Virus record (IMG/VR): IMGVR_UViG_3300037427_001344
Span: 1 to 39,088 of that record
Source of the DNA: a virus
Length of the DNA stretch: 39,088 bases
Direction: 5' to 3' (one strand)
Each line of letters begins with the position of its first letter. The first letter of the stretch is position 1. The translations under genes and the position numbers were made by a program. This document shows positions 2,770 through 38,934 of the stretch, one piece after another. Under the pieces are notes generated by a model. That model saw only the letters and a program-made list of their open reading frames with translations, was not told the origin of the DNA and made no database searches.

Positions 2770-2773
2770 ATAT

Positions 2774-21943: not shown

Positions 21944-24900
21944 ATGCCAGATAATATCATTACATCAGAAGACTTAGGTTTTTCAGAGGCACCAGTAGAA
22001 CAACCAAGTGGAGGTGGTTACATCTCATCAGAAGACATTTTTGGAGTGGGAAAGACAGTAGACTCGACGGGAGACCCGACGATGAGTCAAGAAAGTACGG
22101 GGTCACAATCGGAAGATGGTTCATCGGAATCACCAACTTGGGGTGATAAAATATCAAATACATTTAATGCTTATATAAATCCATTTACACCAACTGCCGA
22201 GCGACCTTTATACGCTGCCGGTATTGACGTTGATGAGGTAAAAGAAAAGACTAGAAAAAAATCTAAAGATTACAATTCTGATAAGGTAAGTTTTGAAAAA
22301 GAATTAGATAAAGCTTTTTCAGACGGAAAGTTATTTGAAAAAATGATTGAAAACCCAAATAAACTCACTCTACAAGAAAGACAAGTTGAGGCTGGTGATT
22401 TTGGTTCGCCTGAAGAATATCTTTTAGACGTTGTAAAAAAAGAACTAGGTGGAAGTGAAGTTTTTGGAATGGGTTGGTTTGGAGATAGAAGCGTTGATGA
22501 AGAAGGAAATCCACTGTATGGAAATCTAACAAACAACGATATTGAAACTATTGTTGAACAAAAGTTCTATGAAAAATTAGATTTAGAAAAAAATAACAAG
22601 GCAAACAACACGGCTTTAAACACTAAAGAGAACATTGAAAAGCAAGGTATTAATATCCGTCAATGGCAAGATGATACTAGAAAAACTTTTATAAGTGGAT
22701 ATTCTGGTGTTGATAGAGAGATAGCTAATCTTGTTGAAGCTATAAACAACGGTGGTTTAGACGAGGCTAAAAGAAAAGAAGCTTACGAAAAACTTACAAG
22801 CTTGAAGGGTAGAGAAAAACGCTCTATGCTTTACGATCTTAATACTGGGCAATTAACTAAAAATAAAACTGAAAATACAGTAGATTTAGGTGTTGAGGAA
22901 ACGCAAGAAAAATATAACGATATTTTAGGTAGACTTAAACCAGAGGATCAATTAGACTATTTAAGAAATGAATTTGAAAGATCAGCATTGACATTATCTG
23001 GTCATAACCAAAAACTAGACGAAGTAAAACAGTGGTCTATACTTAAATCTGGTTATGAAATAGCAGACGATCCAACTGGTGGTAACAGACGTATAGTTGA
23101 GAGCAGTTTAAGAGATCTAATGATGGATACGGAGTTTGCTAATTTTTCACCTGTACCAGCGAGTGAATTAAGAAGAAAAAAAGACGAAACAGATTCTGAG
23201 TATAAAAAAAGAAAAAAGGATTTATTTTCAAATTACGAAACTGATATTAAAGCTTTAAAACAAGACGATCTAGAATACACTAGAGAATTTGAGTCGCTTA
23301 AAGGTATGTATTTATTAAACGATGGTATTGTTGATATAGAAAAACCTGAATATTTAGGCGCTTTACTACCACCTAAAAACATGGCTGCTTTAAAGCAATC
23401 TGCAGCTGCTTTAATAAGACCTTGGACTAGTGAGTATCATGTTGATAAATTATTGGGTTCTACCAATAGGACTATACTAACTGAAACTGGTGAAATTTAT
23501 GATAATTTAGGTATTAAAAAAACTAAAGCTGAAGAAAAACAAGTAAAAGCTTCGTTTGAAGAAGGTCTTAACGAGGGTGTTCTTGGTATGAATAAAATGA
23601 TGTTTGAGTTTGCTGGATACAATAAAATTCTGGGCGTTACCGGTGTAACTAGTAAGTTTAACGGTTTAATGAAGGCTTTAAATGGTGGTAAGTGGGTTAA
23701 AAATGGAAAAACTTTTACTGATGCAAGTATAAAAGCTAGAGCAACAGCTCAAGGAATCAAAGTGAAAGATTACGCAGCTAACTTAGGGTTAAGATCCGTT
23801 CAAAGCGCTAAAAATAGATTTTATAGTATTGGGGCGTCTGGTTTGTTAGAGGGTGGTAAATTTGAGTTGTTTACTCAATTTGATATAACAAAAGGTAAAC
23901 TAAAACCTGAAGCTGGTGAACAATTTGGTTTTGCTACTGGTTTTGGTTTTGGAGCTATGGGTAGAGTTATAGCCCCATTGTCTCCATTTTTACAAGGAAA
24001 AGGCTATTTAAAAGATATAGATAAGTCTATAAAACTTGGAAGTAGAGAAGCTAGAATAGGTTTAAATAGTAAAAAACTATTTGAAACGTTTGTAACACAA
24101 CCAGCTAGTTTTGTTGTTGGTTCTGAAGGCGGTGAATTAGCAAATGCTATAGTTGATGACATGTTAGGTAATAAGCAACTTGGTAATTATATGGAACACC
24201 ATTACGGTGATTATGGTGATGTTGGAATGAGATTGATTACTAATTACTTTACTGGACTAGGTTTAGGTGTAGGGCATTTTAAAGGTTTTACAGATTTTAA
24301 ATCTAAAGCGGCTTTAAGAAGAACTAGAGATACAGCGTTAGATAAAATGAGAGAATCTGGTAGATTAGCTGAGCTAACAGAAGCTGAGCAAAATAATATA
24401 TTTAGTGAAAACTCTCAAAATAAATTACATAAAAATTTATCTGATAAAAACCTACAAGAATTTTACAAACACTACGAGATATTTGATGGTATGGAAGGTA
24501 GACTTCAACAGCTTTATAGAGCTGAGGGTTATATGGACCCATCAAGAGCAGATGAGTTGGTAAAACAAGATCATAAACAATTTTTAGCTGAAGAAAAAGC
24601 CGCTGGAAGAGAGGTTAAACTTGAGGTTGTAAATAATAAAAAACTTAAATTTCAACAACAAGCTATTGACCCAAATAAGAAAGCTGAAATATCTAAAGAT
24701 CCTAAAAGTAAAATAACAACTATTAGATATAATGCTGAGTTATATAGCCCAGATGTAATGCCACACGAGGTGCATCACTACTATACTGATGAGTTATTTG
24801 GTCAAGACGCTGTGTTTAAAGGTGAATTTATGAATACTTTAAAAAGTATTGGTAATAATGTAACATTAAAAAGGTTAGTAACAGAGCAAGAGGCTAAAGA

Positions 24901-27900
24901 ACTTGGCAATGAAAGCTTAAAAGGGAAAAAGATGACGCTTTCTCAATCTATTGAATTAAAGAAATTTGATCTTTCAAGTCCAACTAATCAGCAAAGAATA
25001 TCTCAATGGGAGTTGTTTGCTCATATCGCGGAGCAGATAGGTAATAAAAATAATTACTTTGATATAAAAAATTCTGGTGAAGTTGATGGTTTTGTTGGTC
25101 TTAGAGATTTATTATCTACTTTAGGTAAAACTACTGGTAAAAAAATAAATTTAAGTAGAGAAAAAGATGTTGTTGAATGGTTTTCTAAGTATGCTGAAAA
25201 CGTAAAGAAAGGTAAAAGTGTTGTTGACATGTTCTCTGAATTAGAAAGTGTTATTGATTTTGAAGCCACAGCAATACGTAAAGCTGAAAGATTAGCTGAA
25301 GGTAGAACCGGTAAAGATACTTATAGTTCTGAAACTTTAGATTTAGGTGAAGGGCGAAAAGTAAATAATCCTAAAAAATTAGCTAGCGATATTCAAAAAG
25401 AATACGAAGCAAAACTAGCTGAAGGCAAGGATAAAATGGCTGCTTATAAAGAACTATCAGATCCAAATCCACGCTCTGCTAACTATGATGCTAATTATCC
25501 TGTGCTAGGTAAAAAAGTAGGGCCTATGTTTGACATAGCTATATCTTCTTGGAATCGAAGTGTTGGTGATCAGTTTAGAATTAATTTAGGTGATAGAGGT
25601 TGGGAGTCAAAAAGATCAGCGTTAGCTATGGACTTTTTATCTGATAAAAGAGGCTTTCAAGATATATTTAAACAATATACACCTGACAAGGGTAAGTTAA
25701 TGACTTGGGTTGTTGGTCAATCTAGGTTAAGAATGCAAGAGATAATTGAACGTGGTGTTGGTAAGGTTACTGATATAAGAGAAACCAAAGTAGGTGACTT
25801 TGTTGAGTTTGAAAGAATATTTGAAGATGTTGACATGGCTGGTGGTAAGGTAGACAAAAGCTTTGATGCTCAAAATCCAAATATAGAAAGAAAAGGTATA
25901 TATCTACCTGAGCATAAATTTGAATTTGAAGGTGGGCAAAAAAGAACAATGGATCCAGCTTCTGTTGAAAGCATAAAAGCTGAATCTAAAAAAGTTTTTT
26001 ACGAAAGTAAATTAGAAGAAAACACTGGTGTTCAAATAGGTGAAAAATTACAACCTATTACCGAAGCGGCTATGAACAAAATGATTGGTGTTAAAGAAGG
26101 TATGAAACCCGCTGAAATTAATAATGTTCAATCTCCGTTTTTTGCTAAAAACAAAGCTATATCTTACGATGCTGGTTTAGAATTAACGTCAAACCCTAAT
26201 TTTTATGAAAATACAAATGCTGCAAAAAGTATATTTAACTTCGCACATAAAAACACCGGTGTAAAATACAAAACAGCTGAGTTAACCGTTGAAGAAGCTC
26301 GTAGAACAAACGCTAGAGCTTATAAATATGAAAAGAAAAAAGCAACAGAACAGCTTGTTGACAAGGTACAAGAAGTAATAAATTCTGGTAGAGACGCTGG
26401 TACAAAAGTAGCAAAACAAAATGTGTTAAAAAATGGTATAGGAAAACATTTTGGTAATCAAATATACAGAGAGTCTTTAAAAGAAATAAAACAAGAAATT
26501 GATTCTAAATTACAAGATCCAACTTTAGATGTAAAATATTGGTCAGAGCAAAAAGCTAAACTAGAAGGTGTAATGGCTGAATTAGCAATGCGTAAGCTTC
26601 GAGGAGCTGTCCCTGAAAAATTAGCATCTGAAGATCTAGATGTAATGAATAACTTTATTAAAGAGTGGAAAGGGTTAGATCACGGTAAACTTAAATACCC
26701 AGAGATACGCTTAAGAACAATGATTGAAAACAACAAGGATTACAAACGTTTGTTTGATACCAAATTAAATGTTGTTGATCAGATCGCTAAAGAAATGGGA
26801 TATGAGTTAAGAGAAATATCTAAAGATGTATTTGAACAAGTAAGCGAGGCTAATAGAGTTTTAGAAAAAAATATAACAAAAATAGTAGAACCTAGATTAA
26901 CTAAAAACTGGAGAGAAGTTGAGTTTGGAAACGAAATGAAACAACTTTTAGAAGAAAAAGGTTATCCTAAAGAAATCGTAAACGAATTAAAGTTTGATGA
27001 AACTTCTTGGTCTAAAGATCGTAATAGTGTAGTAGAATATGATACGTTTTTAAAGGATTTTTATAACGAATTACCATTAGAAATAGCATTACACCAAATA
27101 TTAAAAAAATCAGCTGGAACGGGCGCTGGTAAAACACTATTTGTAAACGAAAAAGGACAAGTAGAAAGAAGAAATAATGATTGGTGGGATTCTTTTAGTA
27201 AAGAGTTTAAAGGTTCTGGTAAAAAAGCACCAGCATGGCTTAAGCATGTTAAAACTATTAAGAACGGTACTTTAAAAGCTGGAATAAATAAAGCTTTAGA
27301 ATTACCAGAGTTTAGTGATATTAAAACAAACGAAAAAACACAAAAGAAGTTTGCTAATTATATAACTAAAAAATATTTAACAAATAAAGGCTCTACATAC
27401 GAACAGGTTTTAGATGCAAATCAAAAAATGATGGAGTTTATGGGTGAAAAACTTTTTGATTATTTTAATAAATCTAAAGATAAAGTATTTGCACTAAACA
27501 ATATAAAAAGATATTTACAAATACAAACTAGTATAGAAGATGGTTTTGTTAGAAGTTTAGCCACACATGACGCTATATCTATAAAAAGAGGATCAAAGCA
27601 TAGTGAACATGAGTTTCAAGCATTAAACATGAGTACTAATCTTATGTTAAATGTGGTTAAAAACGCTGGTAGTAAAAAGGTGTTTTTAGAAAACCTAAAA
27701 CCTTTAACAAGAATATTTAGACAAAGTATAATAGAAAAATCTGTACAAGCAAAATACGACGCGCCGGAATTTGGTGGTAAAACCGGTTTTGAATTTGTAT
27801 TTACCACGGAAACCGGTAAGTACGGTTGGATGAGAGAAATGAAGGTGGCTGAAAACACTTTAGATTTAAGAACCGGTAAAACTTATGACAAATTAATTTT

Positions 27901-30625
27901 AGATTTAGTTACAAGTAGTAAGGCTCTTAAAGCTGTGGAAAAATTAAAAGACAAAATGCTTAATCAAGTAGGTGTAGATGGCAAAAGAATGTCTCCTACT
28001 GAAAAAGTTGAAGCCATGAAAACTATAGATAACGCTATAGCTTTAGGTAGAAAAAGAAAAAAAGTAGCTAGAGGTATGAGTACTTTTGATTTTGATGAAA
28101 CATTAAGAGAAAAAGGTAAAGAATTTGTTACGGCAACTAGAGGTAAAGAATCTATAAAAATAAGTTCTGAAAACTTTCCACTAAAAGGACCTGAGCTTGC
28201 TGAGCAAGGTTATAAATTTGATTTTAAAGATTTTGTAAATGTTAAGGGCGGTGTAGAAGGACCATTAATGCAAAAACTAAGAAATCAAATAAAAAAATAT
28301 GGCAATGAAAATGTTTATATTCTAACAGCTAGAATGCAAGAAGCGGCACCAGCAATACATGCTTGGTTAAAATCTAAAGGTGTAGAATTACCTATAGAAA
28401 ACATCACTGGTTTGGGTAATAGTACAGGCGAAGCAAAAGCAATGTGGATGTTAGAGAAGTTTTCAGAAGGATATAACGATATGTATTTTGTAGATGACGC
28501 TATGCCTAACGTAAAGGCCGTTAGAAATGTTTTAAACCAACTAGATATAAAATCTAAAGTTCAACAAGCTTTAGCTAGTGAAAATTTAGATATTAGTGTC
28601 AACAAAATAATGGAACACTCTTTAGATATAGGTTCTGAAAAAATATTTTCAAAAGCTGAAGCTAAAGTTAGAGGTAAAGATATTAAGCGTAGAAGAGTGT
28701 TTATGAGGGATAGCGCTGCTGATTTAGAGCTTCTTATAGAGCCTTTATATGGCAAAGGTAAGAAAGGTATAGAGAATAAAAAATGGTTTAAAGAAGAGTT
28801 TGTAATGCCATTTGAAAGAGGTACAAGAGACTATAATACAGCTAGACAATCCGCTAAGAACGATTATATAAATCTTCGTAGACAAAATAAAGATGTTGTC
28901 AAAGAAATATCAAAAGAAGTTGAAGGGACTACATTTACTAATGACATGGCTATGAGAGTTTATCTTTGGAATAAAGCTGGTTATAAAATTCCTGATCTAG
29001 CTAAAACAACAGAAGCTAAATTAGTTGAGCATATTCAAAACAACCCAAAACTACAGGCCTATGCAGAACAATTTGCTAGAATAACAAAGCAAGAAAAAGG
29101 CTTAAAAGAACCAGGTCAAAACTGGTGGGCAGAGACAATGGCTGGAGAGGTGACAAATATAAATAGAGGTGTTAGTAGAAAACAATATCTTCAAGAGTGG
29201 ATAGATAGAAAAAATGAAATATTTACCGAAGAGAATCTAAACAAGATGGAGTCTAAATTAGGCACTGAGTGGAGAGAAAATGTCACAGATATGTTTGATC
29301 GTATGGAAACTGGTAGAACTAGATCTTTAAAGATGGATAGAGGTAGCGCTGCTATGATGAACTATCTAAATGGAGGTATTGGTACTATTATGAATTTTAA
29401 CACTAGATCAGCTTTACTACAAACTATATCTACTACCAATTTCTTAAACATGAGAGAGAACAACCCTATTGCCGCCGCTAGAGCAATGGGCAATGTAAAA
29501 CAGTTTGCTAAAGATTTTAAGTTTATAATGAACTCTGACATGTTAAAACAAAGAAGAGATGGTTTAGCTATAAACGTGACTGAAGCTGAACTTGCTTCCG
29601 CAGCTGCTTCTTCAACAAATCCTATACAAGGAATGATTGCTAAAGTTCTTAAGGCTGGTTATTTACCAACTAAAATGGCGGATAGTTTTGCAATATCACT
29701 TGGTGGCGCTACATTCTATAGAAATAGAATTAAGATGTATGAAAAGCAAGGTATGAAAACTAAAGAAGCTGAAAAACAAGCTTGGTTAGATTTTCAAGTA
29801 TTATCAGAGAGAACTCAACAGTCATCAAGAGCAGATTTATTATCTAAACAACAAACATCATTAATAGGTAGATTTATATTACCATTTGCTAATACGCCTA
29901 TGCAGATGAATAGAGCTGGTATGAAAGATATATTAGATATATCTAAAGGTAGATATAAAGATGGTAGAGAGTTAACAGAAAAAGTAGGTAGAATATCTTA
30001 TTACATGGGAGCTCAAGTAGCTGTATTCGCTGGATTACAATCAGCATTGTTTGCAATGTTATTAAATGATGATGACGTGCCTGAAGAAAAAATAGCTAAC
30101 ACAAAATCAATGATGTTAAACACAACAGCTGATTCTATGCTAAGAGGTTTTGGTATACAAGGTGCTGTTATATCAGCATTTAAAAATGCTACGCAAGAAT
30201 ATTTCAAGCAATCCGCAAAGGGTTATAACGCTGATTATAGCGAGGTTGCTGAAGATTTATTAAATATATCACCTCCAGTTGGCTCTAAGTTTGGCATGTT
30301 GGATAGAGCTGGTGATACTAAAAAGTGGGCAAAAATAAGAGGAGATGATAAATTTAAATTTGAATTAGGTAATCCATCTTTAGAGGCTTCATTAATGACT
30401 ATACAGGCAACTACTAATGCTCCTGTTTACTCACCATACCAAAACATATTTAATATGAGTCATGCTTTGAGTGACCAATATGAAACATGGCAGAGATTCC
30501 TTATGGGCGCTGGTTGGACACCATATAGCGTTGGGGTTGAAACTGAAAAGAAAAAGAAAAGTAGCGTGGGGGGAAGAAAAGAAAGAGTAAGAAAAGAAAG
30601 AGTAAGAAAAGAAAGAGTTAGATAA
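21944..30625 (+). CDS. Giant polyvalent internal virion protein (zincin-like and HAD-like motifs)
   Basis: This 2893-residue protein has the hallmarks of phage polyvalent proteins, which are packaged with DNA and carry several activities into the cell. From the N-terminus: a disordered acidic stretch with two SED motifs (ITSEDLGF, ISSEDIFG); long helical regions; HEVHH at residues 941-945 with a possible third zinc ligand in WELFAH (E1023); KGKLMTWVVGQSRLRMQEII near residue 1249; and DFDET (D2049, D2051, T2053) with LTAR (T2128) and FVDD (D2184, D2185), the order of HAD phosphatase motifs I, II and IV. The C-terminal ~450 residues resemble the end domain common in such proteins (RFILPFANTPMQMNRAG) with a hydrophobic helix (GAQVAVFAGLQSALFAMLL). 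Three KERVR repeats end it. Activities are inferred from motifs only. Confidence 0.72.
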   Translation: MPDNIITSEDLGFSEAPVEQPSGGGYISSEDIFGVGKTVDSTGDPTMSQESTGSQSEDGSSESPTWGDKISNTFNAYINPFTPTAERPLYAAGIDVDEVKEKTRKKSKDYNSDKVSFEKELDKAFSDGKLFEKMIENPNKLTLQERQVEAGDFGSPEEYLLDVVKKELGGSEVFGMGWFGDRSVDEEGNPLYGNLTNNDIETIVEQKFYEKLDLEKNNKANNTALNTKENIEKQGINIRQWQDDTRKTFISGYSGVDREIANLVEAINNGGLDEAKRKEAYEKLTSLKGREKRSMLYDLNTGQLTKNKTENTVDLGVEETQEKYNDILGRLKPEDQLDYLRNEFERSALTLSGHNQKLDEVKQWSILKSGYEIADDPTGGNRRIVESSLRDLMMDTEFANFSPVPASELRRKKDETDSEYKKRKKDLFSNYETDIKALKQDDLEYTREFESLKGMYLLNDGIVDIEKPEYLGALLPPKNMAALKQSAAALIRPWTSEYHVDKLLGSTNRTILTETGEIYDNLGIKKTKAEEKQVKASFEEGLNEGVLGMNKMMFEFAGYNKILGVTGVTSKFNGLMKALNGGKWVKNGKTFTDASIKARATAQGIKVKDYAANLGLRSVQSAKNRFYSIGASGLLEGGKFELFTQFDITKGKLKPEAGEQFGFATGFGFGAMGRVIAPLSPFLQGKGYLKDIDKSIKLGSREARIGLNSKKLFETFVTQPASFVVGSEGGELANAIVDDMLGNKQLGNYMEHHYGDYGDVGMRLITNYFTGLGLGVGHFKGFTDFKSKAALRRTRDTALDKMRESGRLAELTEAEQNNIFSENSQNKLHKNLSDKNLQEFYKHYEIFDGMEGRLQQLYRAEGYMDPSRADELVKQDHKQFLAEEKAAGREVKLEVVNNKKLKFQQQAIDPNKKAEISKDPKSKITTIRYNAELYSPDVMPHEVHHYYTDELFGQDAVFKGEFMNTLKSIGNNVTLKRLVTEQEAKELGNESLKGKKMTLSQSIELKKFDLSSPTNQQRISQWELFAHIAEQIGNKNNYFDIKNSGEVDGFVGLRDLLSTLGKTTGKKINLSREKDVVEWFSKYAENVKKGKSVVDMFSELESVIDFEATAIRKAERLAEGRTGKDTYSSETLDLGEGRKVNNPKKLASDIQKEYEAKLAEGKDKMAAYKELSDPNPRSANYDANYPVLGKKVGPMFDIAISSWNRSVGDQFRINLGDRGWESKRSALAMDFLSDKRGFQDIFKQYTPDKGKLMTWVVGQSRLRMQEIIERGVGKVTDIRETKVGDFVEFERIFEDVDMAGGKVDKSFDAQNPNIERKGIYLPEHKFEFEGGQKRTMDPASVESIKAESKKVFYESKLEENTGVQIGEKLQPITEAAMNKMIGVKEGMKPAEINNVQSPFFAKNKAISYDAGLELTSNPNFYENTNAAKSIFNFAHKNTGVKYKTAELTVEEARRTNARAYKYEKKKATEQLVDKVQEVINSGRDAGTKVAKQNVLKNGIGKHFGNQIYRESLKEIKQEIDSKLQDPTLDVKYWSEQKAKLEGVMAELAMRKLRGAVPEKLASEDLDVMNNFIKEWKGLDHGKLKYPEIRLRTMIENNKDYKRLFDTKLNVVDQIAKEMGYELREISKDVFEQVSEANRVLEKNITKIVEPRLTKNWREVEFGNEMKQLLEEKGYPKEIVNELKFDETSWSKDRNSVVEYDTFLKDFYNELPLEIALHQILKKSAGTGAGKTLFVNEKGQVERRNNDWWDSFSKEFKGSGKKAPAWLKHVKTIKNGTLKAGINKALELPEFSDIKTNEKTQKKFANYITKKYLTNKGSTYEQVLDANQKMMEFMGEKLFDYFNKSKDKVFALNNIKRYLQIQTSIEDGFVRSLATHDAISIKRGSKHSEHEFQALNMSTNLMLNVVKNAGSKKVFLENLKPLTRIFRQSIIEKSVQAKYDAPEFGGKTGFEFVFTTETGKYGWMREMKVAENTLDLRTGKTYDKLILDLVTSSKALKAVEKLKDKMLNQVGVDGKRMSPTEKVEAMKTIDNAIALGRKRKKVARGMSTFDFDETLREKGKEFVTATRGKESIKISSENFPLKGPELAEQGYKFDFKDFVNVKGGVEGPLMQKLRNQIKKYGNENVYILTARMQEAAPAIHAWLKSKGVELPIENITGLGNSTGEAKAMWMLEKFSEGYNDMYFVDDAMPNVKAVRNVLNQLDIKSKVQQALASENLDISVNKIMEHSLDIGSEKIFSKAEAKVRGKDIKRRRVFMRDSAADLELLIEPLYGKGKKGIENKKWFKEEFVMPFERGTRDYNTARQSAKNDYINLRRQNKDVVKEISKEVEGTTFTNDMAMRVYLWNKAGYKIPDLAKTTEAKLVEHIQNNPKLQAYAEQFARITKQEKGLKEPGQNWWAETMAGEVTNINRGVSRKQYLQEWIDRKNEIFTEENLNKMESKLGTEWRENVTDMFDRMETGRTRSLKMDRGSAAMMNYLNGGIGTIMNFNTRSALLQTISTTNFLNMRENNPIAAARAMGNVKQFAKDFKFIMNSDMLKQRRDGLAINVTEAELASAAASSTNPIQGMIAKVLKAGYLPTKMADSFAISLGGATFYRNRIKMYEKQGMKTKEAEKQAWLDFQVLSERTQQSSRADLLSKQQTSLIGRFILPFANTPMQMNRAGMKDILDISKGRYKDGRELTEKVGRISYYMGAQVAVFAGLQSALFAMLLNDDDVPEEKIANTKSMMLNTTADSMLRGFGIQGAVISAFKNATQEYFKQSAKGYNADYSEVAEDLLNISPPVGSKFGMLDRAGDTKKWAKIRGDDKFKFELGNPSLEASLMTIQATTNAPVYSPYQNIFNMSHALSDQYETWQRFLMGAGWTPYSVGVETEKKKKSSVGGRKERVRKERVRKERVR
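24764..25030 (+). other. Zincin-like (HExxH) region in the polyvalent protein
   Basis: HEVHH at residues 941-945 gives the HExxH zinc-binding helix of metallopeptidases. About 80 residues later, SQWELFAHIAEQI offers an acidic third ligand (E1023) in a helix, as in gluzincin-type folds. A hydrophobic strand (ITTIRYNAELYSPDVM) lies just before HExxH, as expected. The motif is short and proteolytic activity is unproven. Confidence 0.5.
28082..28585 (+). other. HAD-superfamily phosphatase-like region in the polyvalent protein
   Basis: STFDFDETL supplies motif I (DxDxT: D2049, D2051, T2053). VYILTAR supplies motif II (T2128), a Lys within STGEAKAMW could be motif III, and MYFVDDAMPN supplies motif IV (D2184, D2185). 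Order, spacing and hydrophobic strands before each motif match HAD hydrolases, which cleave phosphoester bonds. The substrate is unknown. Nucleotide or polynucleotide 3'-phosphate is one possibility. Confidence 0.7.
30575..30619 (+). repeat. 15-bp tandem repeat, 3 copies, at the end of the giant gene
   Basis: The unit AGAAAAGAAAGAGTA occurs three times in a row (the last copy ends in GTT) and encodes RKERV three times, followed by a final Arg and stop. It adds a strongly basic C-terminal tail. Because the unit is a multiple of three, copy number can change without breaking the frame. Confidence 0.95.
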
Positions 30626-30659: not shown

Positions 30660-31739
30660 ATGGTGAAAAGACTAATAATACTGCTACTACTTATATCTAA
30701 TATAACAGTGGCCCAGACATTTGGAAAAGAAGAGATTAAGGACCTGTTAAAGTTCTCTACATTCTATGCCGCAGTTAACGGTGGAACATCGCTTTCTGAC
30801 GTTGATGTATTTTCTGTAGATAATGGTTTATCTACACAAACTATTTCAACTCCTTATGATTATAATTTTACCATAGGTTTACGTAAGATTGCTCGGTTTG
30901 GATATGAGAATAAAGCGCAAACGTTTTATGATGGAACGGAATCTAATTACAGTGATGCGGCTACTGTAGGTAAAGTAAAAGGAGTTGAATACTTATTTGA
31001 AGTTGATTACAAAAGACAGGAGGGTGTTGACTATATGGATCAGCACCATTTCATTAGATTTAGTTCTGATGATGGTTGTGAGGATGAGCTTTGTATAAAC
31101 TTCTTTGCTTTAAAGCTAGAGTACCTAGAAGATGGGTTTGCGGATATTAAATATTTCGAAGCATCGGAGAGATATAGACAGCGTAAAAGTAAAAACCTAT
31201 CATGGAATGTTGGGATGGTGCATAGATTGGCAGAGCCATATGGTTATAATGCTCTAGACGAATGGGCATTAAGCAATGGTAATATCCATTATACTTATTT
31301 AGCACTACAGGAAGGTTATACGGTGGATGTGTATAGCAACACGTACTACAACCCTACTGGAGAGGTGGTTGCTACTAGTGCTGAGGTTTGGGAGGCGGTA
31401 GTTATCCCAGGAGTACTAGCTGATTACACAGAAAAGAAAAGAAACGAATTAAAGAAAACCATACAGCATTCTTTTGTTATGGGTTTTGATTATTATAAAT
31501 ACTCTAAAAAAACCTGGTTACACGCTTGGGGAAGTTTAATGCCATACCATTATGATGATGGTAGCGAGTTTAGTTATCATAACTATGTTGATGGGCAATG
31601 GTATGATTACTCAGGTGGGTTAATTTACGGAATAAAAGTAAATAAACAATTAGGTTATTTTGTAGAAGGAAAATACAACAAGTACTGGAACAGAGAATGG
31701 TACGATTTTAAACTAGGATTAAATTACACTATATTTTAG
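30660..31739 (+). CDS. Exported outer-membrane beta-barrel-like protein
   Basis: The 359-residue protein starts with a clear Sec signal peptide: MVKRL, a hydrophobic core IILLLLISNI, and probable cleavage at TVA|QT (residue 18), the Ala-Gln junction frequent in Bacteroidota. The mature part has many alternating aromatic/polar strands (FTIGLRKIARFGYENKAQTF, EYLFEVDYKRQ, LGYFVEGKYNKYW). It ends LGLNYTIF with a C-terminal Phe, the signature by which the BAM machinery recognises outer-membrane barrels. It is the first of four abutting genes for envelope or secreted proteins. I infer insertion into the host outer membrane late in infection. A soluble periplasmic or virion role is possible. AAAGGA directly before ATG is too close to act as a normal Shine-Dalgarno. 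Confidence 0.65.
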   Translation: MVKRLIILLLLISNITVAQTFGKEEIKDLLKFSTFYAAVNGGTSLSDVDVFSVDNGLSTQTISTPYDYNFTIGLRKIARFGYENKAQTFYDGTESNYSDAATVGKVKGVEYLFEVDYKRQEGVDYMDQHHFIRFSSDDGCEDELCINFFALKLEYLEDGFADIKYFEASERYRQRKSKNLSWNVGMVHRLAEPYGYNALDEWALSNGNIHYTYLALQEGYTVDVYSNTYYNPTGEVVATSAEVWEAVVIPGVLADYTEKKRNELKKTIQHSFVMGFDYYKYSKKTWLHAWGSLMPYHYDDGSEFSYHNYVDGQWYDYSGGLIYGIKVNKQLGYFVEGKYNKYWNREWYDFKLGLNYTIF

Positions 31740-31740
31740 A

Positions 31741-32022
31741 ATGGCAAAGGAATTAAATGAAGATACGGGGTTTCAAGTAAGTATTAAGAGTTTAATAGCT
31801 ATAGGATTCGCTATGGCTACTATAATAGGAATGTGGTTTGCTTTACAAGCAGATATTGCGGAAGCAAAGGAATTACCAGCTCCATTACCACCAGATGTTA
31901 CTCGTATGGAATTTGACATGAAAGACCAAATGATTCGTAATACAATTATAACTACGCAATCAGATGTTGAAGAAATTAAAGAGACTCTAGAGAAAATAGA
32001 AGATAAACTTTATAATAGATAA
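31741..32022 (+). CDS. Small one-helix membrane protein (holin-like or spacer)
   Basis: The 93-residue protein has one predicted membrane helix (LIAIGFAMATIIGMWFALQA, about residues 17-36), a Pro-rich hinge (ELPAPLPPDV) and a C-terminal coiled-coil-like region (SDVEEIKETLEKIEDKLYN). One TM plus a charged coiled coil resembles some phage holins, pinholins or spanin-like subunits, and tailed phages usually keep such genes among late genes. No endolysin is recognisable next to it, so a lysis role is only a possibility. It starts 1 bp after the barrel gene and its stop abuts the next start, indicating tight co-translation with exported proteins. Confidence 0.6.
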   Translation: MAKELNEDTGFQVSIKSLIAIGFAMATIIGMWFALQADIAEAKELPAPLPPDVTRMEFDMKDQMIRNTIITTQSDVEEIKETLEKIEDKLYNR

Positions 32023-32364
32023 ATGAAAAATAGAATAGCATATTTATTTGTAATTATATTCTGGTTAATAGTTGCAACTGCTTTTGGTCAAATACAAGTT
32101 TCACAATTTAATGCCAGTTGGAATAGTGCCAATGGAGTTTCTTGGGTTCAAGATTTAAAGGAGTGTAAGACTATAGCTTATGTAGATATAAACGATAGTC
32201 CTAAATTAGCTACAGAGCATAAGATAGCTGTTATACCTACTATTATAATATTTAAAGACGGAGAAGAGGTTGCTAGATTCCAAGCTGATCTTAGTTTTAA
32301 AATGGTAGCAACAAGAGAAGAAGTACAAGAAGAAATAGATAACCAACTAATGAGTGATTTTTAA
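32023..32364 (+). CDS. Exported thioredoxin-fold protein lacking the active cysteines
   Basis: This 113-residue protein has a signal peptide (LFVIIFWLIVATAFG|Q, cleavage near residue 22) and a compact thioredoxin-like sequence. The order VSQFNASWNSAN, IAYVDINDSPKLATEHKI, then IPTIIIFKDGEEVARF matches thioredoxin's strand-active site, strand-helix and cis-Pro (P72) strand-turn. Where thioredoxin has WCGPC this protein has W33-N34-S35-A36-N37, so both redox cysteines are Asn and disulfide exchange by the usual mechanism is impossible. One Cys (C48) remains elsewhere. It probably acts in the periplasm as a binding or folding partner, perhaps for the repeat protein 1 bp downstream. Cargo and role are unknown. 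Confidence 0.68.
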   Translation: MKNRIAYLFVIIFWLIVATAFGQIQVSQFNASWNSANGVSWVQDLKECKTIAYVDINDSPKLATEHKIAVIPTIIIFKDGEEVARFQADLSFKMVATREEVQEEIDNQLMSDF

Positions 32365-32365
32365 A

Positions 32366-34960
32366 ATGAAAAAACTATTATTAATATTATTATTACCTAT
32401 ATTTAGTTTCGGACAAGTTGTAAATACTTTTCCTTGGATACATGATTTTGAAAACGCTATCCCATTAGAGCAAGAAACAAATGATGATGGAGATTGGTGG
32501 TTAATGCAAGGGGCTACAACATCTATAAACACTGGTCCTTCAGGAGATCACACCACTGGTAATGGTGTATATTTTTACATAGAATCATCCTCGCCTAATT
32601 ATCCTGATAAAGAATTTATATCTTATACACCTGTATTTGATGTATCTGCAACTCCTGGTAAAGTATTATCATTCTGGTATCATATGTATGGGGCGTCTAT
32701 GGGCGATCTAGAGATAGGTATATTAACAAACGGTATATATATACCTATTGATACTATATCTGGCAACCAGGGCAATCAATGGCAATTTGCTTATTATCCA
32801 ATAATGGCAAATAATGCTTTCAAAGTAGCATTTAAAGGAACTACTGGAGCGAGTTTCACTAGTGATATATGTATTGATGATATAATGGTTAGTGATCCAT
32901 TTGCAATTATATATGGCTGTATGGATACTATATCTTCAAATTATAATCCAACAGCAACTATTAATTCTGGTTGTATATATTCATATGGATGTATGGATCC
33001 AACTGCTACTAATTATAATCCTTGGGCTAATGTTGATGATGGTAGTTGTATTATGGAAGTTGTTTGTACTGCAAACAAATCATTAGTTGATATAGCTATA
33101 ACTTTAGATAACTGGCCAAATGAAACATCTTGGTTAATATATTCAGCTACAGATACATTTGCCTCAGTTCCAACTAATACTTACGATTATACACAGACAG
33201 GACAAACAGTACATACTCAAGTATGTATACCTGTTGGAGATTCAATAATGTTTACACTTAACGACAGCTATGGTGATGGTATTGGTGGTGGATCAGTTGT
33301 TGGTGGTTGTTTAGTTACAAATTTAGATTGTCAAGATACGGTGTTTTATTTAAACCCACCTAACTTTGGATATACAGCATCGTCTAACTGGTATACATCG
33401 GCGTCTTGTAACAATGATACTATTATATACGGATGTACAAACAACACTTATTTAGAATATGATTCTTTAGCTACAGATGATGACGGTAGCTGTGTGACAC
33501 TAGCCGCTTATGGCTGTACTGATGTAACAGCATTCAATTATGATCCAAACGCTGACTTTATGTTGTTAACTTCACCTTGTGTTTATGATTTAATATTATA
33601 TGATGATGGTGGGGATTCATGGGGAGCTTGTTGGCTAGGTGTTGAGCAAGGTGATTCATTGTGGCAATTTAAAATTAATGGCAACAATATATACTCAGAT
33701 ACTTTTGCTTTAGAGCTCAACTCTTATGATGAGGTTTATTTCTATTATTTTGAAATACCTACACCTCAGCAAAACGCTCAACAATTAGATATACAAACGA
33801 TACAAAATTCGTTTAAATTAGAGAATTCTTTTGGGACTATACTATATGAAGGTAATAATCCTTGGCCTGGTCCAAATGAGAATAAATTAAGAAATTATAG
33901 AAGCGCTTTAGATATTTATGAAGCACAACCTTATTGCGGTAACGAATGTGTACCAGTTGTTATGGGTTGTATGGAGATTACTGCCTACAATTATAATAGC
34001 TTGGCAAATACAAGTGATACATGTTATTATGACCCTGGTTGTACTAATCCTGGTTATTTACAGTATTACACTCAAGGATTCGCTGCTGATATAGATGATG
34101 GTAGTTGTACTACTCCAGTAGTTTTTGGATGTATGGACTCTACTGCTTTTAATTACAATGGATCTGCTAATGTGGATAATGGTGGTTGTGTGCCTGTTAT
34201 TTTAGGTTGTATGAACGAGTTAGCTTTTAACTACAATCCACTAGCAAACACACCTGATACCTGTGATCTTATTATATATGGATGTATAGATCCAACAATG
34301 TATAATTTCTGTGATAGTTGTAATACTGAAGATGGTAGTTGTGAACCATACGTGTTTGGCTGTACAGATTCAACAATGTTTAATTATAATCCATTAGCAA
34401 ATAGTGATAACAATTCTTGTATACCTTACATATCTGGCTGCACGGATCCTTCTATGCTTAATTATAACCCACAAGCAAACACGGAGGATTTTAGTTGTAT
34501 CCCTTATGTTTATGGGTGTATGGATAGTTTGGCTCTTAACTATGATTCACTTGCTAACACGGACAACGGTTCGTGTGTCGAAGTGGTTATGGGTTGCATG
34601 GATCCAAACGCGTATAACTACGAATCAGCTGCTAATGTTAATGATTCTATATCTTGTTTATATAGCGCTAATTGTATTACTGGTGCAGGGAATCCTTACT
34701 GGCTCAATGACGAATGTTATGCTTGGGTTATTTCAGTAGATGATTACTGTTGTGAAAACGAATGGGATACTATATGTCAAGCAACATATGACTATTGTGA
34801 TGGTACTTGGTCAGGACCATTATTAACTAGAACACCTGTAGAAAAGAAACTTATGCAGATTACTGATCTTTTAGGTAGACCAACAAAACAAACAAAAAAC
34901 AAACTTCTCTTCTATATCTATGATGATGGTACGGTAGAGAAAAAATTAATTAAACAATAA
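32366..34960 (+). CDS. Secreted repeat-rich surface protein with T9SS-type C-terminal domain
   Basis: I take ATG 32366, 1 bp after the previous stop, giving 864 residues. It begins with a signal peptide (MKKLLLILLLPIFSFG|QVV). Next comes a MAM-like beta-sandwich (about residues 20-175) with FPWIHDFEN and KVLSFWYHMYGASMGDLEI. Thirteen Cys repeats of the type YGCMDPTATNYNPxAN..DGSC follow in groups of 2, 2 and 9, separated by two beta domains (one with NDSYGDGIGGG). A Cys-rich block (DECYAW, DDYCCENEWDTICQ) precedes the last ~40 residues, EKKLMQITDLLGR and LFYIYDDGTVEKKL. This tail matches C-terminal sorting domains used by the type IX secretion system of Bacteroidota. The protein should be exported and attached to the host surface by host machinery. 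Confidence 0.78.
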   Translation: MKKLLLILLLPIFSFGQVVNTFPWIHDFENAIPLEQETNDDGDWWLMQGATTSINTGPSGDHTTGNGVYFYIESSSPNYPDKEFISYTPVFDVSATPGKVLSFWYHMYGASMGDLEIGILTNGIYIPIDTISGNQGNQWQFAYYPIMANNAFKVAFKGTTGASFTSDICIDDIMVSDPFAIIYGCMDTISSNYNPTATINSGCIYSYGCMDPTATNYNPWANVDDGSCIMEVVCTANKSLVDIAITLDNWPNETSWLIYSATDTFASVPTNTYDYTQTGQTVHTQVCIPVGDSIMFTLNDSYGDGIGGGSVVGGCLVTNLDCQDTVFYLNPPNFGYTASSNWYTSASCNNDTIIYGCTNNTYLEYDSLATDDDGSCVTLAAYGCTDVTAFNYDPNADFMLLTSPCVYDLILYDDGGDSWGACWLGVEQGDSLWQFKINGNNIYSDTFALELNSYDEVYFYYFEIPTPQQNAQQLDIQTIQNSFKLENSFGTILYEGNNPWPGPNENKLRNYRSALDIYEAQPYCGNECVPVVMGCMEITAYNYNSLANTSDTCYYDPGCTNPGYLQYYTQGFAADIDDGSCTTPVVFGCMDSTAFNYNGSANVDNGGCVPVILGCMNELAFNYNPLANTPDTCDLIIYGCIDPTMYNFCDSCNTEDGSCEPYVFGCTDSTMFNYNPLANSDNNSCIPYISGCTDPSMLNYNPQANTEDFSCIPYVYGCMDSLALNYDSLANTDNGSCVEVVMGCMDPNAYNYESAANVNDSISCLYSANCITGAGNPYWLNDECYAWVISVDDYCCENEWDTICQATYDYCDGTWSGPLLTRTPVEKKLMQITDLLGRPTKQTKNKLLFYIYDDGTVEKKLIKQ
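32912..34660 (+). repeat. Thirteen Cys-rich protein repeats in three blocks
   Basis: Blocks lie at about 32912-33052 (2 units), 33428-33583 (2 units) and 33962-34660 (9 units). Each unit is about 23-26 residues: a GC pair, a D/N-containing turn, (N/E)Y(N/D)-P, then DGSC or similar. They are diverged in DNA sequence, so they are old protein repeats and not recent duplications. Cys spacing suggests one disulfide per unit. Such repeats are common in marine Bacteroidota surface proteins. Confidence 0.88.
34838..34960 (+). other. T9SS-type C-terminal sorting domain
   Basis: The last ~40 residues of the surface protein read EKKLMQITDLLGRPTK, a short polar linker, then LFYIYDDGTVEKKLIKQ. The 'DxLGR' turn and the 'YIYDDGTVEKK' strand are hallmarks of short flavobacterial type A sorting domains. 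They would direct outer-membrane translocation and surface anchoring by the host T9SS. Confidence 0.8.
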
Positions 34961-34973
34961 AAAGTAAAAAATT

Positions 34974-35393
34974 ATGGCAACAACAACGGCGACATTAACG
35001 CTTTCTAGTACTGACTTGCTTTCTGACGCGTTGTCTGTGTCAGCAACTCAAACACTTTACAAAGCGGGAACAACAACAGGGTTAGATGGACTTCAATACG
35101 AAAGATTAGAAGTGGCGGCTGGGACAGAAGTAGATATAATAGATGCTACGACAGCGGGTGCTAACAAAGCTAATAAAGTTTATGTAGCTAACAAGCATAC
35201 GGATGAAACTAAATATATAGAAGTTTATATAGCAACTTATAAAATCGGTAGACTATATGCTGGTGATTGGATGTTTATACCTTTAGAGGCAGCAGCTGCT
35301 AGTCAAGACATAAGTATAAAAGCTATTACAACTACTCAAGTAGTTGAATTTGCTTTGATACATGAGGGTAAAACATTAACAACTGCTTCTTAA
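34974..35393 (+). CDS. Small structural protein, copy 1 of a diverged tandem pair
   Basis: The 139-residue protein starts MATTTATLTLSSTDLLSDAL and contains KVYVANKHTDETKYIEVYI followed by IGRLYAGDWMFIPLEA. The next gene has the same two landmarks, so the two are paralogs. Thr/Ala-rich, short, all-beta sequences of this type occur near tail-fibre genes in marine phages and are usually minor virion or decoration proteins. There is no signal peptide, although the preceding four genes encode exported or membrane proteins, so this marks the return to virion genes. Function is unknown. Confidence 0.55.
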   Translation: MATTTATLTLSSTDLLSDALSVSATQTLYKAGTTTGLDGLQYERLEVAAGTEVDIIDATTAGANKANKVYVANKHTDETKYIEVYIATYKIGRLYAGDWMFIPLEAAAASQDISIKAITTTQVVEFALIHEGKTLTTAS

Positions 35394-35419
35394 TAATAAC
35401 GATAAATAAATAAATAAAT

Positions 35420-35902
35420 ATGGCAACAACAACAGCAACAATAACTTTAGCCAGTTCTGACATAGCTGACAACGCGTTATCTATTTCGAACACGATGACA
35501 ATGACAACGGCTGGTACTACGACTGGTATTACAGAGACAACAGGTTTAGCGAGAAAAAAAATGGCAAGCACAACTTTAACAGATTTGATAACGTTAAATA
35601 GCTTCCAAGATATTACTGCCCAAAAATCAGCTAAAGTATATATTAAAAATACAGGTACAGCAACAGATAAATATGCTATAATAGGTATAGGTAATTCAGC
35701 TGCTACACCGTATACAATAGGTAGATTATATGGTGGAGATTGGATGCTTTTCCCTTGGTTAGCGCTTCCAGTTGACGGAGATGGATTTAGTGCCTCTGAA
35801 ACAGACGATGGAACTTACGGTCACGCGTCGAACCAGGATATCACTATAGACATGTCTGATGACACTGAAACCATTATTGAATATATGGTATTCTTTGAAT
35901 AA
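35420..35902 (+). CDS. Small structural protein, copy 2 of a diverged tandem pair
   Basis: The 160-residue protein begins MATTTATITLASSDIADNAL, has AKVYIKNTGTATDKYAIIGI and YTIGRLYGGDWMLFPWLALP, and ends in IIEYMVFFE. It matches the previous protein in its start, its KxYxxN strand and its IGRLY-GDWM block, with an extra ~20-residue loop after the last. The DNA has diverged, so the duplication is not recent. The leader is a run of TAAATAAATAAATAAAT before ATG with no Shine-Dalgarno. A decoration, head-fibre or fibre-attachment role is plausible but not shown. Confidence 0.55.
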   Translation: MATTTATITLASSDIADNALSISNTMTMTTAGTTTGITETTGLARKKMASTTLTDLITLNSFQDITAQKSAKVYIKNTGTATDKYAIIGIGNSAATPYTIGRLYGGDWMLFPWLALPVDGDGFSASETDDGTYGHASNQDITIDMSDDTETIIEYMVFFE

Positions 35903-35904
35903 GA

Positions 35905-36420
35905 ATGGCTCAATACTTTAATATATCTGGTGAGCTTACTCAAGAGCTTTTAGCGGCCGGGGACGACGTTAATGTAAATAAAATATATTTAACAAATGTT
36001 CAAAAAGTCGCTAAATGCAAAGTAGACTTGTATATAGAAAAGCAGCTTACAGGTAAATTCTATCTCTTAAAGGGAGTAGAATTACCCATAGGAGCAACTT
36101 TACTATACGATAATGTATCGTTCAATAACTCTGATGGTGAGTATGGCTTGTATATTAAATTAACAGATGGTGATAATTTCGTTTTAACAGGAAGCATAGA
36201 TGTAACCGGAACTAATACAGACGTTCCTGGTACTAACACTTTATATACTTCAGAATTATCTGTTGGAGATGAGATCTTAGTAACTGGAGAAACAAGAACA
36301 GTATCATCAATAACGGGTGATACAACAGCGGTGGTTAGCGCCGCTTGGGGAAGTGACTTGGCTGATGACTCCTCACCAGAGTGCTACCCAACGGCTTTAG
36401 TAGACGTAGTAATAAATTAA
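35905..36420 (+). CDS. Small beta-rich virion-type protein
   Basis: The 171-residue protein is predicted to be largely beta: KIYLTNVQKVAKCKVDLYIE, GKFYLLKGVELPIGATLLYD and YGLYIKLTDGDNFVLTGSI. The second half holds a repeat-like VTGTNTDVPGTNTLYTSELS followed by VGDEILVTGETRTVSSITG, resembling phage tail beta-roll domains. It starts 2 bp after the preceding stop. The family is not recognised. Context among structural genes and absence of a signal peptide suggest a tail or fibre accessory protein. Confidence 0.5.
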   Translation: MAQYFNISGELTQELLAAGDDVNVNKIYLTNVQKVAKCKVDLYIEKQLTGKFYLLKGVELPIGATLLYDNVSFNNSDGEYGLYIKLTDGDNFVLTGSIDVTGTNTDVPGTNTLYTSELSVGDEILVTGETRTVSSITGDTTAVVSAAWGSDLADDSSPECYPTALVDVVIN

Positions 36421-36426
36421 TAAATT

Positions 36427-36690
36427 ATGACATGGATAGGTAATGCTAGCTCAACTACATCGTTGGAGTTAGTAACATCAAATATTACATATACACACTC
36501 TCAGACTTCTTCGTCTAACACGTGGACTATCACTCATAATTTGGGTAGGTATCCCTCTGTAACAGTGGTAGACACTGGTGGGACGATACTTACAGCTGCT
36601 GTAACTTATAACTCAGTAAATCAACTAACAATAACATTTTTTTCCAATGGATCTGCTTTAGCAACTACTGGGAAAGCATATCTTAATTAA
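36427..36690 (+). CDS. Stand-alone fibre-tip-like protein
   Basis: The 87-residue protein resembles the end of a phage tail fibre without the shaft: TWTITHNLGRYPSVTVVDTG, a beta hairpin, LTITFFSNG and an ending GKAYLN. A similar ITH-S-LG motif occurs near the C-terminus of the 740-residue fibre just downstream. Isolated tip domains may trimerise and cap another fibre, or be leftover from recombination. It is in the same operon as the fibres. Receptor binding is inferred. Confidence 0.55.
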   Translation: MTWIGNASSTTSLELVTSNITYTHSQTSSSNTWTITHNLGRYPSVTVVDTGGTILTAAVTYNSVNQLTITFFSNGSALATTGKAYLN

Positions 36691-36711
36691 AAATAACAAA
36701 AACAAAATAAA

Positions 36712-38934
36712 ATGGCAATTAATTTTTATAGTGCGATAAATATGAACGGGAACGACATAGAGCGGCTTCGTCCACATCAGTTAAGTTCCGCACCTAGTAG
36801 CCCTTCTCCAGTTTCTGGACAAATGTATTATAATACAACGGCTAATACTTTACATTATCATGATGGTACTAACTTTATACAAGTTGCAAACCACGCTGAT
36901 ATTGGATCTGGCGCTATGAGTGCCTTTATAATAGAGGATGACGATGGAACTGAAGTATCAGTTTCCAACGCTGAAGAAATTAAGTTTATAGGATCTGGTA
37001 TAACAACTAACTGGACAGATACTTCTCATGGTAGTGACGGTGATCCGTTCGACTTAACATTCACGGTTGACGCAGCTCAAACTGGTATAACATCTATATT
37101 AGCTACTGATTTAAAAATTGGTGAAGACAATCAAACAAAAATAGATTTTGAAACTGCAGATGAAATTCATTTTTATGCAGCCAATGTAGAACAAGTGTAC
37201 TTAGCAGACAATATATTTGGACCACAATCTGATAGTGATGTTGATTTAGGTACTACAGGGGTACGCTGGAAAGATGCTTATGTAGATAGTATAACAGTAA
37301 CAGGTGAGGTTGATGGTGCTACTCTTGATATTAGTGGTAATGCTGACATAGCAGGTGACTTAACCGGTCTAGATAATATAACATCAACAAATTATATTGT
37401 TGGAGGTCACACTATAGACGATATAGATATTACAGCTGAGTTTACTGATGCAGATGCGCATATAATGTCATCTAAAGCTATTGGCGCTAGATTTGCATTA
37501 AAAAATGCTGACACAACTGGTACTGCTGCAATAGCAACCACTGTTACAATCACAGATAACGAAAGTACTGATGAAGACAACCCAATTGTATTCGTCGCAG
37601 GTGGTGACGTTGATGGTGGTAACTTAGGGCTAGAAACAGATGGTAACGCTCACTACAATCCTTCAACGGGAAAAATAACAGCAACAGCTTTCGCGGGTAA
37701 TTTAACTGGTAACGTTACTGGTAATGTAACTGGTACAACATCGTTAGCTACTGTTACTAATTCAACAGCAAACACAAACTTCCCAGTAGTATTTAATGAT
37801 GAGTCAAACGCTTTATTGGACGATACGGGAGCTCTTTACTATAATCCTTCTACAGGATTATTAACTGTTCCAAACTTAAGTGTAGCTGGTACTACAACAC
37901 AGGTTGACACGGTAACAATGAATGCGCAGAACGCTGTAGTATTTGAAGGTGCTACTGCTGATGCTCACGAAACAACTTTAACAGTTGTGGATCCTACTGG
38001 TGATAATACTGTTTACATACCTGATGCTGGTGGTTACATACCATTGATCGCTGATGCAAGTACAGCTGATGGAGCTGTAACAGCCGCTGAGTTTGCTTTA
38101 CTTGATGGTGGTTCTACAGTAGCAACTGGAGCTTTTGCAAATGGAGATGGTTTACTGCATAATGATGGCGGTACAATGAAACAAACAAACGTTAGTTCGT
38201 TAGCAACTTTGTTTGCTGGTGCTGGTATGACAGCTACAAGTTCTGTTGTTAATGTTATTGGTGGAGATGGTATTACTGCAAATGCAAATGATGTTGCAGT
38301 GACAGCTGCTCAAACTACTATAACATCAGTATTAAATGCTTCTCTTGTTGTAGGTAGAGACGCTCACAATCAAATTGATTTTTCTACTGATAATCAAATA
38401 AAGTTTAAAACAAATAACGAGACCCCAGTAATTATAATGAAATCTTCTGGAGAGATCGAGGCTACTAGCTTAGATATATCAGGTGATGCAGACATCGATG
38501 GTACTTTAGAAACAGACGCGCTTACAATTGGTGGTGCAGCGGTACTAGCACAAGCAACAGCAAGTGCAGTTGGTGCGGTTGAATTAGCAACTGCAGCTGA
38601 AGTTTTAACTGGTACAGATACCGCTAGAGTTGTTACAGCTGATACTTTGGCTGCTAAAGCAGTTGTTTGTGATATTGATGTTTCAAGTTTGACGGATGAT
38701 AAGAGAGCTACAATAACACATAGTTTAGGCACGGCTGATGTAGCGGTGCAGATGTATGACAAGACTACAGAGGCCACGGTTTACGCTGAAATTGGTAGAA
38801 CAACTGATGATATGAGTACTGCTAGTACATCTGTGATTACCGTTGACTTTGGCGCGACAGATCCACCAAACGATATTAGAGTCGTTATTACAAGTTTAGC
38901 TGGAGCAACAGCTGGATCAGTAGCCTACACATAG
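36712..38934 (+). CDS. Tail fibre protein
   Basis: The 740-residue protein begins MAINFYSAINMNGNDIERL, followed by SPVSGQMYYNTTANTLHYHD and GTNFIQV, a modular N-terminus common in phage fibres. The shaft is repetitive and Gly/Thr/Asp-rich, including AHYNPSTGKITATAFAG, the LTGNVTGNVTG tandem motif near residue 331, and YYNPSTGLLTVPNL. Near the C-terminus, RATITHSLGTADVAVQMYD forms a likely tip. No intramolecular chaperone peptidase (S74-type) was seen. Fibres of this design bind receptors, and the repeated shaft allows module exchange. The module GRDAHNQIDFSTDNQI (from 38350) recurs at the start of the next gene. The gap before it is A-rich without a Shine-Dalgarno. Confidence 0.78.
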   Translation: MAINFYSAINMNGNDIERLRPHQLSSAPSSPSPVSGQMYYNTTANTLHYHDGTNFIQVANHADIGSGAMSAFIIEDDDGTEVSVSNAEEIKFIGSGITTNWTDTSHGSDGDPFDLTFTVDAAQTGITSILATDLKIGEDNQTKIDFETADEIHFYAANVEQVYLADNIFGPQSDSDVDLGTTGVRWKDAYVDSITVTGEVDGATLDISGNADIAGDLTGLDNITSTNYIVGGHTIDDIDITAEFTDADAHIMSSKAIGARFALKNADTTGTAAIATTVTITDNESTDEDNPIVFVAGGDVDGGNLGLETDGNAHYNPSTGKITATAFAGNLTGNVTGNVTGTTSLATVTNSTANTNFPVVFNDESNALLDDTGALYYNPSTGLLTVPNLSVAGTTTQVDTVTMNAQNAVVFEGATADAHETTLTVVDPTGDNTVYIPDAGGYIPLIADASTADGAVTAAEFALLDGGSTVATGAFANGDGLLHNDGGTMKQTNVSSLATLFAGAGMTATSSVVNVIGGDGITANANDVAVTAAQTTITSVLNASLVVGRDAHNQIDFSTDNQIKFKTNNETPVIIMKSSGEIEATSLDISGDADIDGTLETDALTIGGAAVLAQATASAVGAVELATAAEVLTGTDTARVVTADTLAAKAVVCDIDVSSLTDDKRATITHSLGTADVAVQMYDKTTEATVYAEIGRTTDDMSTASTSVITVDFGATDPPNDIRVVITSLAGATAGSVAYT
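37696..37734 (+). repeat. 12-bp tandem repeat in the tail fibre shaft
   Basis: Three diverged copies of the 12-base unit GGTAAYNTNACT, closed by a further GGT, encode GNLT, GNVT, GNVT and G. Such Gly-Asn-x-Thr repeats are common in fibre shafts and may allow slippage in length without loss of frame. Confidence 0.85.
38350..38406 (+). repeat. Shared fibre module, copy 1
   Basis: These 19 codons of the first fibre (VGRDAHNQIDFSTDNQIKF) resemble 39006-39062 at the start of the next gene (IGRDADNLLDFSTDNEITF). They are a direct, diverged repeat marking module sharing between adjacent fibre genes. Confidence 0.85.

Follow-up and report, generated by a model that had tools for sequence, protein, structure and literature searches.

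The window, as the whole stretch of DNA analyzed is called here, comprises a viral sequence record 39,088 bases in length, and all of the features described below lie on its plus strand. An open reading frame at positions 32366–34960, whose ATG start and stop codon fall exactly where the preliminary description had placed them, encodes a protein of 864 amino acids (P0001) that resembles cargo of the type IX secretion system (T9SS). A scan of IMG/VR yielded relatives of this protein at 65 loci from 36 datasets, with most matches reaching the last residues; these loci are contigs rather than independent genomes, and some are near copies of each other.

The protein begins with a signal peptide, MKKLLLILLLPIFSFG (residues 1–16; positions 32366–32413), followed by Q, and the signal peptide claimed earlier can thus be read directly from the translation. 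A hydrophobic signal core is present in all 58 relatives with a complete N-terminus, and 57 of them have a cleavage site between a small residue and Q. Residues 34–175 (32465–32890) form a MAM domain (PF00629, 75.7 bits versus a cut-off of 26.4, E 4.6e-21), described earlier as "MAM-like." The head of the protein varies within the family: the majority of relatives have a module other than MAM in this place, and the N-terminal starts comprise 27 with MAM and 39 that are either different or cut off.

Between residues 184 and 764 (32915–34657) the chain consists of GC-x-D...NYNP.AN repeats, with other β domains in between; counting GC-x-[DNE] in the translation gives 13 repeats, the number first reported. 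A Cys domain (residues 770–811; 34673–34798), recognized by near-invariant alignment columns with the pattern C..YWLND.CYAWV..VDDYCCENEWDTICQ.TY..C, lies directly ahead of a short T9SS-type tail of 47 residues (818–864; 34817–34957). The tail, which ends in YIYDDGTVEKKLIKQ, is identified by a hidden Markov model of bacterial tails and is predicted by AlphaFold to contain three strands. The AlphaFold model of the full-length cargo has a mean pLDDT of 46.9, most of the protein falling below 50, and is usable for the tail and for some of the head and β domains.

Two side observations concern the ends and repeats of family members. At one locus (L012:2386–4854) the signal peptide of the cargo relative, MKNKIACLFVVLFWLVITTVFGQ, resembles that of the thioredoxin-fold gene of the window, unlike those of other cargo genes; signal peptides, too, appear to have been exchanged between genes. 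The same GC-x-D repeats are found in large tail-less phage open reading frames upstream in L019, L036, L044, and L056, and cyanophage S-CAM3 has them in a protein annotated as "virion structural protein."

Viral Origin of the Locus

The cargo gene is embedded in a phage late region. Genes for the terminase large subunit and portal (553–5191) match phrog_6681 (E 1.3e-174) and phrog_6547 (E 1.7e-159); a gene at 21944–30625 encodes a protein of 2893 amino acids that is conserved at about 40% in most relatives with a podovirus-type backbone and is the positional counterpart of an 11-kb structural gene in Elemovirus; and small appendage-like genes together with a tail-fiber-like protein lie downstream of the cargo (34974–38934). 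Terminase, portal, and virion genes thus surround the cargo gene on one strand, in agreement with the late operon proposed initially. By terminase, the nearest named relatives are Caudoviricetes MW202828 (64% identical) and Elemovirus (Flavobacterium phage elemoA, 45%), both of which share the late gene order of the window, and then phages of Cellulophaga, Tenacibaculum, and Maribacter. By this measure the window phage falls among the flavobacterial phages.

The domain make-up of the cargo is that of host surface proteins, and repeat-rich relatives occur in bacteria of the order, as would be the case for an ordinary bacterial surface gene brought into the record by host contamination or by a misjoined contig. 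The preliminary description had itself named a misjoin as grounds for abandoning its reading. The same neighbors are found at 50 or more of the 65 viral loci, and this phage synteny, conserved across 36 datasets, rules out a misjoin and leads us to reject contamination. When the same architecture is sought in bacterial genomes, as had been proposed, only repeat-level relatives appear, the best segments being 27–57% identical; the exception, the closest copy among 296 genomes of the order (E 4.7e-96), resides on a T4-like phage contig. A bacterial origin of the record at this locus thus has a negligible probability.

A Short C-Terminal Sorting Domain

The preliminary description quoted two motifs from the tail, DLLGR and YIYDDGTVEKK, as signs of a flavobacterial sorting domain, and it proposed a comparison with TIGR04183 in which failure was to count against a T9SS role. 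Both motifs are present, and the match to the bacterial-tail profile argues against chance. The standard profile, on the other hand, leaves the tail unmatched: TIGR04183/TIGR04131-type models give no hit to it, nor does any other NCBIfam model. The tail of the window thus appears to be a short variant that lies outside TIGR04183. The T9SS reading is nevertheless retained, on the strength of an exchange of this tail for a canonical one, the occurrence of the same tag in bacteria, the three-strand model, and purifying selection.

Among the 62 relatives with a complete C-terminus, 47 end in the short tail, and in the other 15 a canonical TIGR04183 domain is attached at the equivalent junction. 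The two kinds differ in length (43–51 residues for the short form, 75–79 for canonical type A) and join closely similar bodies at one point. Isolated canonical tails match TIGR04183 with E values down to 5e-14. Of the 48 records searched with this model, 14 contain a match above its curated cut-off; in every case it falls at the end of a cargo-family gene, and nothing else in those records exceeds the cut-off. Likewise, all of the open reading frames that match either tail profile among the 7377 read from the viral loci belong to the cargo family. A tree of the bodies, which is rough owing to repeats and recombination, requires about 10 changes of tail label, at least 3 of them on well-supported branches. 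The sorting domain is therefore both located at the extreme C-terminus and exchangeable between cargo proteins. The ratio dN/dS for the tail is about 0.34, with dS near saturation, and points to purifying selection. Comparison of the short and canonical tail profiles gave an alignment confined to the linker, and direct homology between them was not found. Counts confirmed by tblastn, which may include near copies, put the short form on 157 contigs and the canonical form on 203.

A profile constructed from 33 bacterial tail matches alone, a few of them fragments, hits residues 826–863 of the window protein with E 4.9e-22 and has no other convincing match among the proteins of the window; in the 65 viral loci it finds exactly 47 open reading frames. 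The short tail occurs in 95 of the 296 Flavobacteriales genomes, on many different proteins, and five small marine Flavobacteriales genomes have 21–25 copies each. In its bacterial form the tag reads K-x-[TN]DLLGRET...LFYIYDDGTVEK and is missed by TIGR04183 (examples are L084–L113). Six of the tail-sharing genomes were examined for the secretion system itself: PorU is present in all six and SprA in five, with 22–57 canonical tails in each, the genome without SprA being a small and possibly incomplete assembly; these Flavobacteriales share the tail and may not be the host of this phage. Most of the bacterial short-tail proteins with a visible start also have the same style of signal, MKKLLLILLCLPMIGFGQ as compared with MKKLLLILLLPIFSFGQ in the phage, and the phage signal peptide is a near copy of the bacterial one.

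The AlphaFold prediction, a further check suggested at the outset, places the strands of the tail at residues 829–833, 847–852, and 857–861, mostly with pLDDT near 80. Short C-terminal domains (CTDs) have been described in Prevotella intermedia, where they comprise 43–55 residues and form a three-stranded sheet (PMC11969387), and the 47-residue, three-stranded tail of the window resembles them in both respects. In models these domains have the same topology and bind PorV, and their cleavage and glycosylation are established facts (PMC11969387). The motif B Gly and the basic motif E of these domains are also present in the window tail; in the tail alignment the L, G, and R of LLGR are invariant, and almost every row has basic residues close to the end. 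Short and long CTDs coexist in one genome in P. intermedia, as they do in the tail-sharing Flavobacteriales. In contrast, the GxY (or GxN) of motif D, found in the P. intermedia domains, is missing from the corresponding LLFYIYDDG of the window, from the other phage short tails, and from most of the bacterial ones. The tails considered here differ further in belonging to marine Flavobacteriales and their phages, and in that their cleavage and anchoring are predictions. As far as sequence can tell, marine Flavobacteriales are the second group with short CTDs after P. intermedia.

In its overall plan the cargo corresponds to T9SS type A substrates (TIGR04183, PF18962), with an N-terminal Sec signal and a sorting domain at the very end, but it differs from them in that the curated models match none of its 47-residue tail and in that the gene is viral. 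For a canonical CTD, the last 22 residues are enough for secretion of GFP (PMC4804311). The suggestion of a T9SS-exported adhesin can thus be divided. Its export part stands, since both export signals are present, conserved, and of the type used by T9SS-bearing Flavobacteriales, even though the standard profile fails, and the cargo is very likely to be exported; the word "adhesin" is a guess.

A Four-Gene Cassette

Three genes lie directly upstream of the cargo. The first (30660–31739) encodes a putative outer-membrane β-barrel of 359 amino acids, with a signal peptide and a C-terminal Phe; the second (31741–32022), a protein of 93 amino acids with one transmembrane (TM) segment and a coiled coil, holin- or spanin-like in shape; and the third (32023–32364), an exported thioredoxin fold without CXXC (PF00085, E 4.3e-6). 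In this last protein the active site is replaced by FNASWNSANGV, and its role is likely to be structural and non-redox. The barrel model has a pLDDT of 71.7; the matching folds in the PDB are NanC (TM 0.35/0.55) and FapF, and a search of BFVD retrieved A0A516LKJ4 (E 1e-20). Searches of PDB sequences with the cargo and barrel profiles gave no match. A PorV/PorP-type T9SS shuttle was considered for the barrel and found to be unsupported, given that it has no Pfam match and that NanC and FapF are its best PDB folds. Close relatives of the barrel (e.g., L040, L045, L021) begin with either a plain signal peptide or a lipoprotein-like start (LIACSAPKKCCSQ).

These genes travel together. The TM and thioredoxin-fold genes are each kept at 53 of the 65 cargo loci. 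The barrel was found in 433 viral stretches, and the best 79 of these include the TM and thioredoxin-fold genes in 72 cases and the cargo in 55; the cassette is adjoined by 75 of the 79 canonical-tail loci. Two gene orders dominate, barrel–TM–thioredoxin–cargo (36) and cargo–barrel–TM–thioredoxin (26). Relatives of the barrel are 60–94% identical, as against about 40% for most relatives of the neighboring 2893-residue protein, and a window-type version of the latter gene occurs within the flank read at 13 of the 79 canonical-tail loci. A staphylococcal-nuclease-like gene (18 loci, e.g., L016:9632–9997) and a weak PAP2-like gene (20 loci, e.g., L033:8782–9312) are often found in or beside the cassette. 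In MW202828 and Elemovirus, by comparison, the stretches examined show no annotated cassette gene, and the barrel has no match in their records. A search of 50,697 named phage records found no barrel, TM protein, or cargo-family member at comparable similarity, the repeats alone matching a cargo query.

The whole cassette is also present on a T4-like myovirus contig of 43,296 bases (G175:C32, L280–L282), beside an amidase endolysin. This contig encodes a T4-type sheath, a DNA polymerase, a DnaB helicase, and a single-stranded-DNA-binding protein, and was binned with a Flavobacteriales genome. Other copies occur on contigs as large as 297 kb. The cassette thus recurs in unrelated phages, on podovirus-type and T4-like contigs.

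This distribution bears on the question of whether the cargo is a virion protein, for example a fiber or a decoration of the head. Its bacterial-looking ends would then be left over from the capture of a gene, or else the protein would be exported first and bind to particles after their release. The cargo gene does lie among virion genes, and its repeats recur both in the "virion structural protein" of S-CAM3 and in the tail-less large reading frames of some relatives. Proteins that are assembled in the cytoplasm would nonetheless hardly be expected to have a Sec signal, as 58 of 58 relatives do, and the tail is either kept under selection or swapped for another T9SS tail. Moreover, the same cassette accompanies podovirus-type and T4-like virions alike, which argues for a function within the infected cell and against one tied to a single type of particle. 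A place in the virion is thus quite improbable.

Possible Role in the Infected Cell

The products of the cassette are predicted to be distributed one per layer: the TM/coiled-coil protein in the inner membrane, the thioredoxin fold in the periplasm, the barrel in the outer membrane, and the cargo at the surface. Made late in infection, the cargo would cross the inner membrane by the Sec pathway through its signal peptide. Its short sorting domain would be recognized in the periplasm, and the protein would pass through the SprA translocon of the host. PorV would then hand it to PorU, which would remove the tail and leave the body either attached to the cell surface or set free, with the three other proteins of the cassette acting as partners in their respective layers. 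The two export labels, taken together with three neighbors that are envelope proteins, indicate that, in the course of infection, the host is probably made to present a protein of the phage on its surface. There is good reason to regard the gene product as a phage-borne substrate of the host T9SS that acts at the envelope with three co-encoded proteins. That the cargo stays on the surface is likely, as is a joint function of the four products.

An alternative is that the cassette is a lysis module, in which the TM protein serves as a holin or spanin partner while the barrel and surface protein destabilize or breach the outer membrane. This is the strongest competitor of a masking role, because endolysin and holin-like genes are close by: an amidase endolysin adjoins the cassette in the T4-like contig, genes for M15 peptidases lie within 4 kb at 25 loci, and a holin-like gene with three TM segments is found at 12. 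The predicted layers, too, are those of a trans-envelope device. Yet late genes cluster in any case, and with separate holin-like and endolysin genes nearby the basic steps of lysis can do without the cassette. Nor do known spanins and disruptins resemble a large protein with Cys repeats, variable heads, and a T9SS tail. Lysis is accordingly an unlikely function of the cassette, if a somewhat less remote one than a place in the virion.

Mutants of Flavobacterium johnsoniae defective in T9SS or gliding resist phages, which suggests that T9SS-displayed proteins matter for adsorption. Since its sorting tail is of the kind that the host itself uses, the cargo might act as a decoy, saturating PorV, PorU, and SprA when overproduced and so removing host surface proteins that serve other phages as receptors. 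For this purpose the tail alone would do; the large body, the diverse heads, and the three partner genes would be left unexplained, and we regard a decoy as improbable, slightly more so than a virion protein.

The role that we favor for a displayed cargo is the masking of infected cells or their debris. The cargo would alter infected cells at their surface, and subsequently the debris, such that rivals and the phage's own progeny avoid unproductive adsorption, the exchangeable head domain and the repeats being the masking or binding part. As an assignment of function, masking or exclusion is tentative, and the odds are against it. A functional analogy is offered by Llp of phage T5, a phage protein at the host outer membrane, as is predicted for the cargo, that blocks superinfection as well as adsorption to the fragments of lysed cells (PMC9586334). 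Llp is a small lipoprotein that uses another export route and has no homology to the cargo.

More broadly, the cassette could be a mobile four-gene trans-envelope apparatus of marine Flavobacteriales phages, with an outer part delivered by the T9SS and with head and sorting tail swapped independently. It would then constitute a new phage-built cell-surface system common to podovirus-type, T4-like, and larger phages. This wider proposal is plausible but falls short of even chances.

Relation to Earlier Work and Implications

The principle of T9SS cargo in phages is already known. For Cryophage (2020), genes bearing T9SS type A sorting domains, within a variable gene content, were proposed to use the host system and were called a unique occurrence (PMC7468147). 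The likeness to the window cargo is clear, but the Cryophage cargo consists of an endoglucanase, a GH39 protein, and a PA14 protein, whereas here a single MAM/Cys-repeat family is found, with a short tail and a fixed four-gene cassette, on hundreds of contigs. Sorting domains were also noted in Bacteroidetes phage proteins in the crAss-BACON study (2019), whose passages on this point concern gut phages in which BACON repeats and a T9SS sorting domain occur in one open reading frame, and describe no cassette (PMC6949934). Beyond these two reports, nothing relevant to phage T9SS cargo was found in the open-access literature. New here are the conservation of a single family across hundreds of contigs, two swappable sorting tails, a short form held in common with bacteria, and the cassette; this variant of phage T9SS cargo is much better supported.

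If the T9SS reading is correct, the tail provides a means of identifying likely hosts of uncultured phages. The results also suggest that short CTDs, reported so far for Prevotella intermedia only, are a common sorting signal of marine Flavobacteriales. Since current family models miss these domains, the secretomes of marine Flavobacteriales would be undercounted. The T9SS is restricted to Bacteroidota and their relatives. If the proposed export is correct, phages of a common group of marine bacteria would routinely rely on this system to reshape the exterior of the cells they infect, by means of sorting signals taken over from the host.
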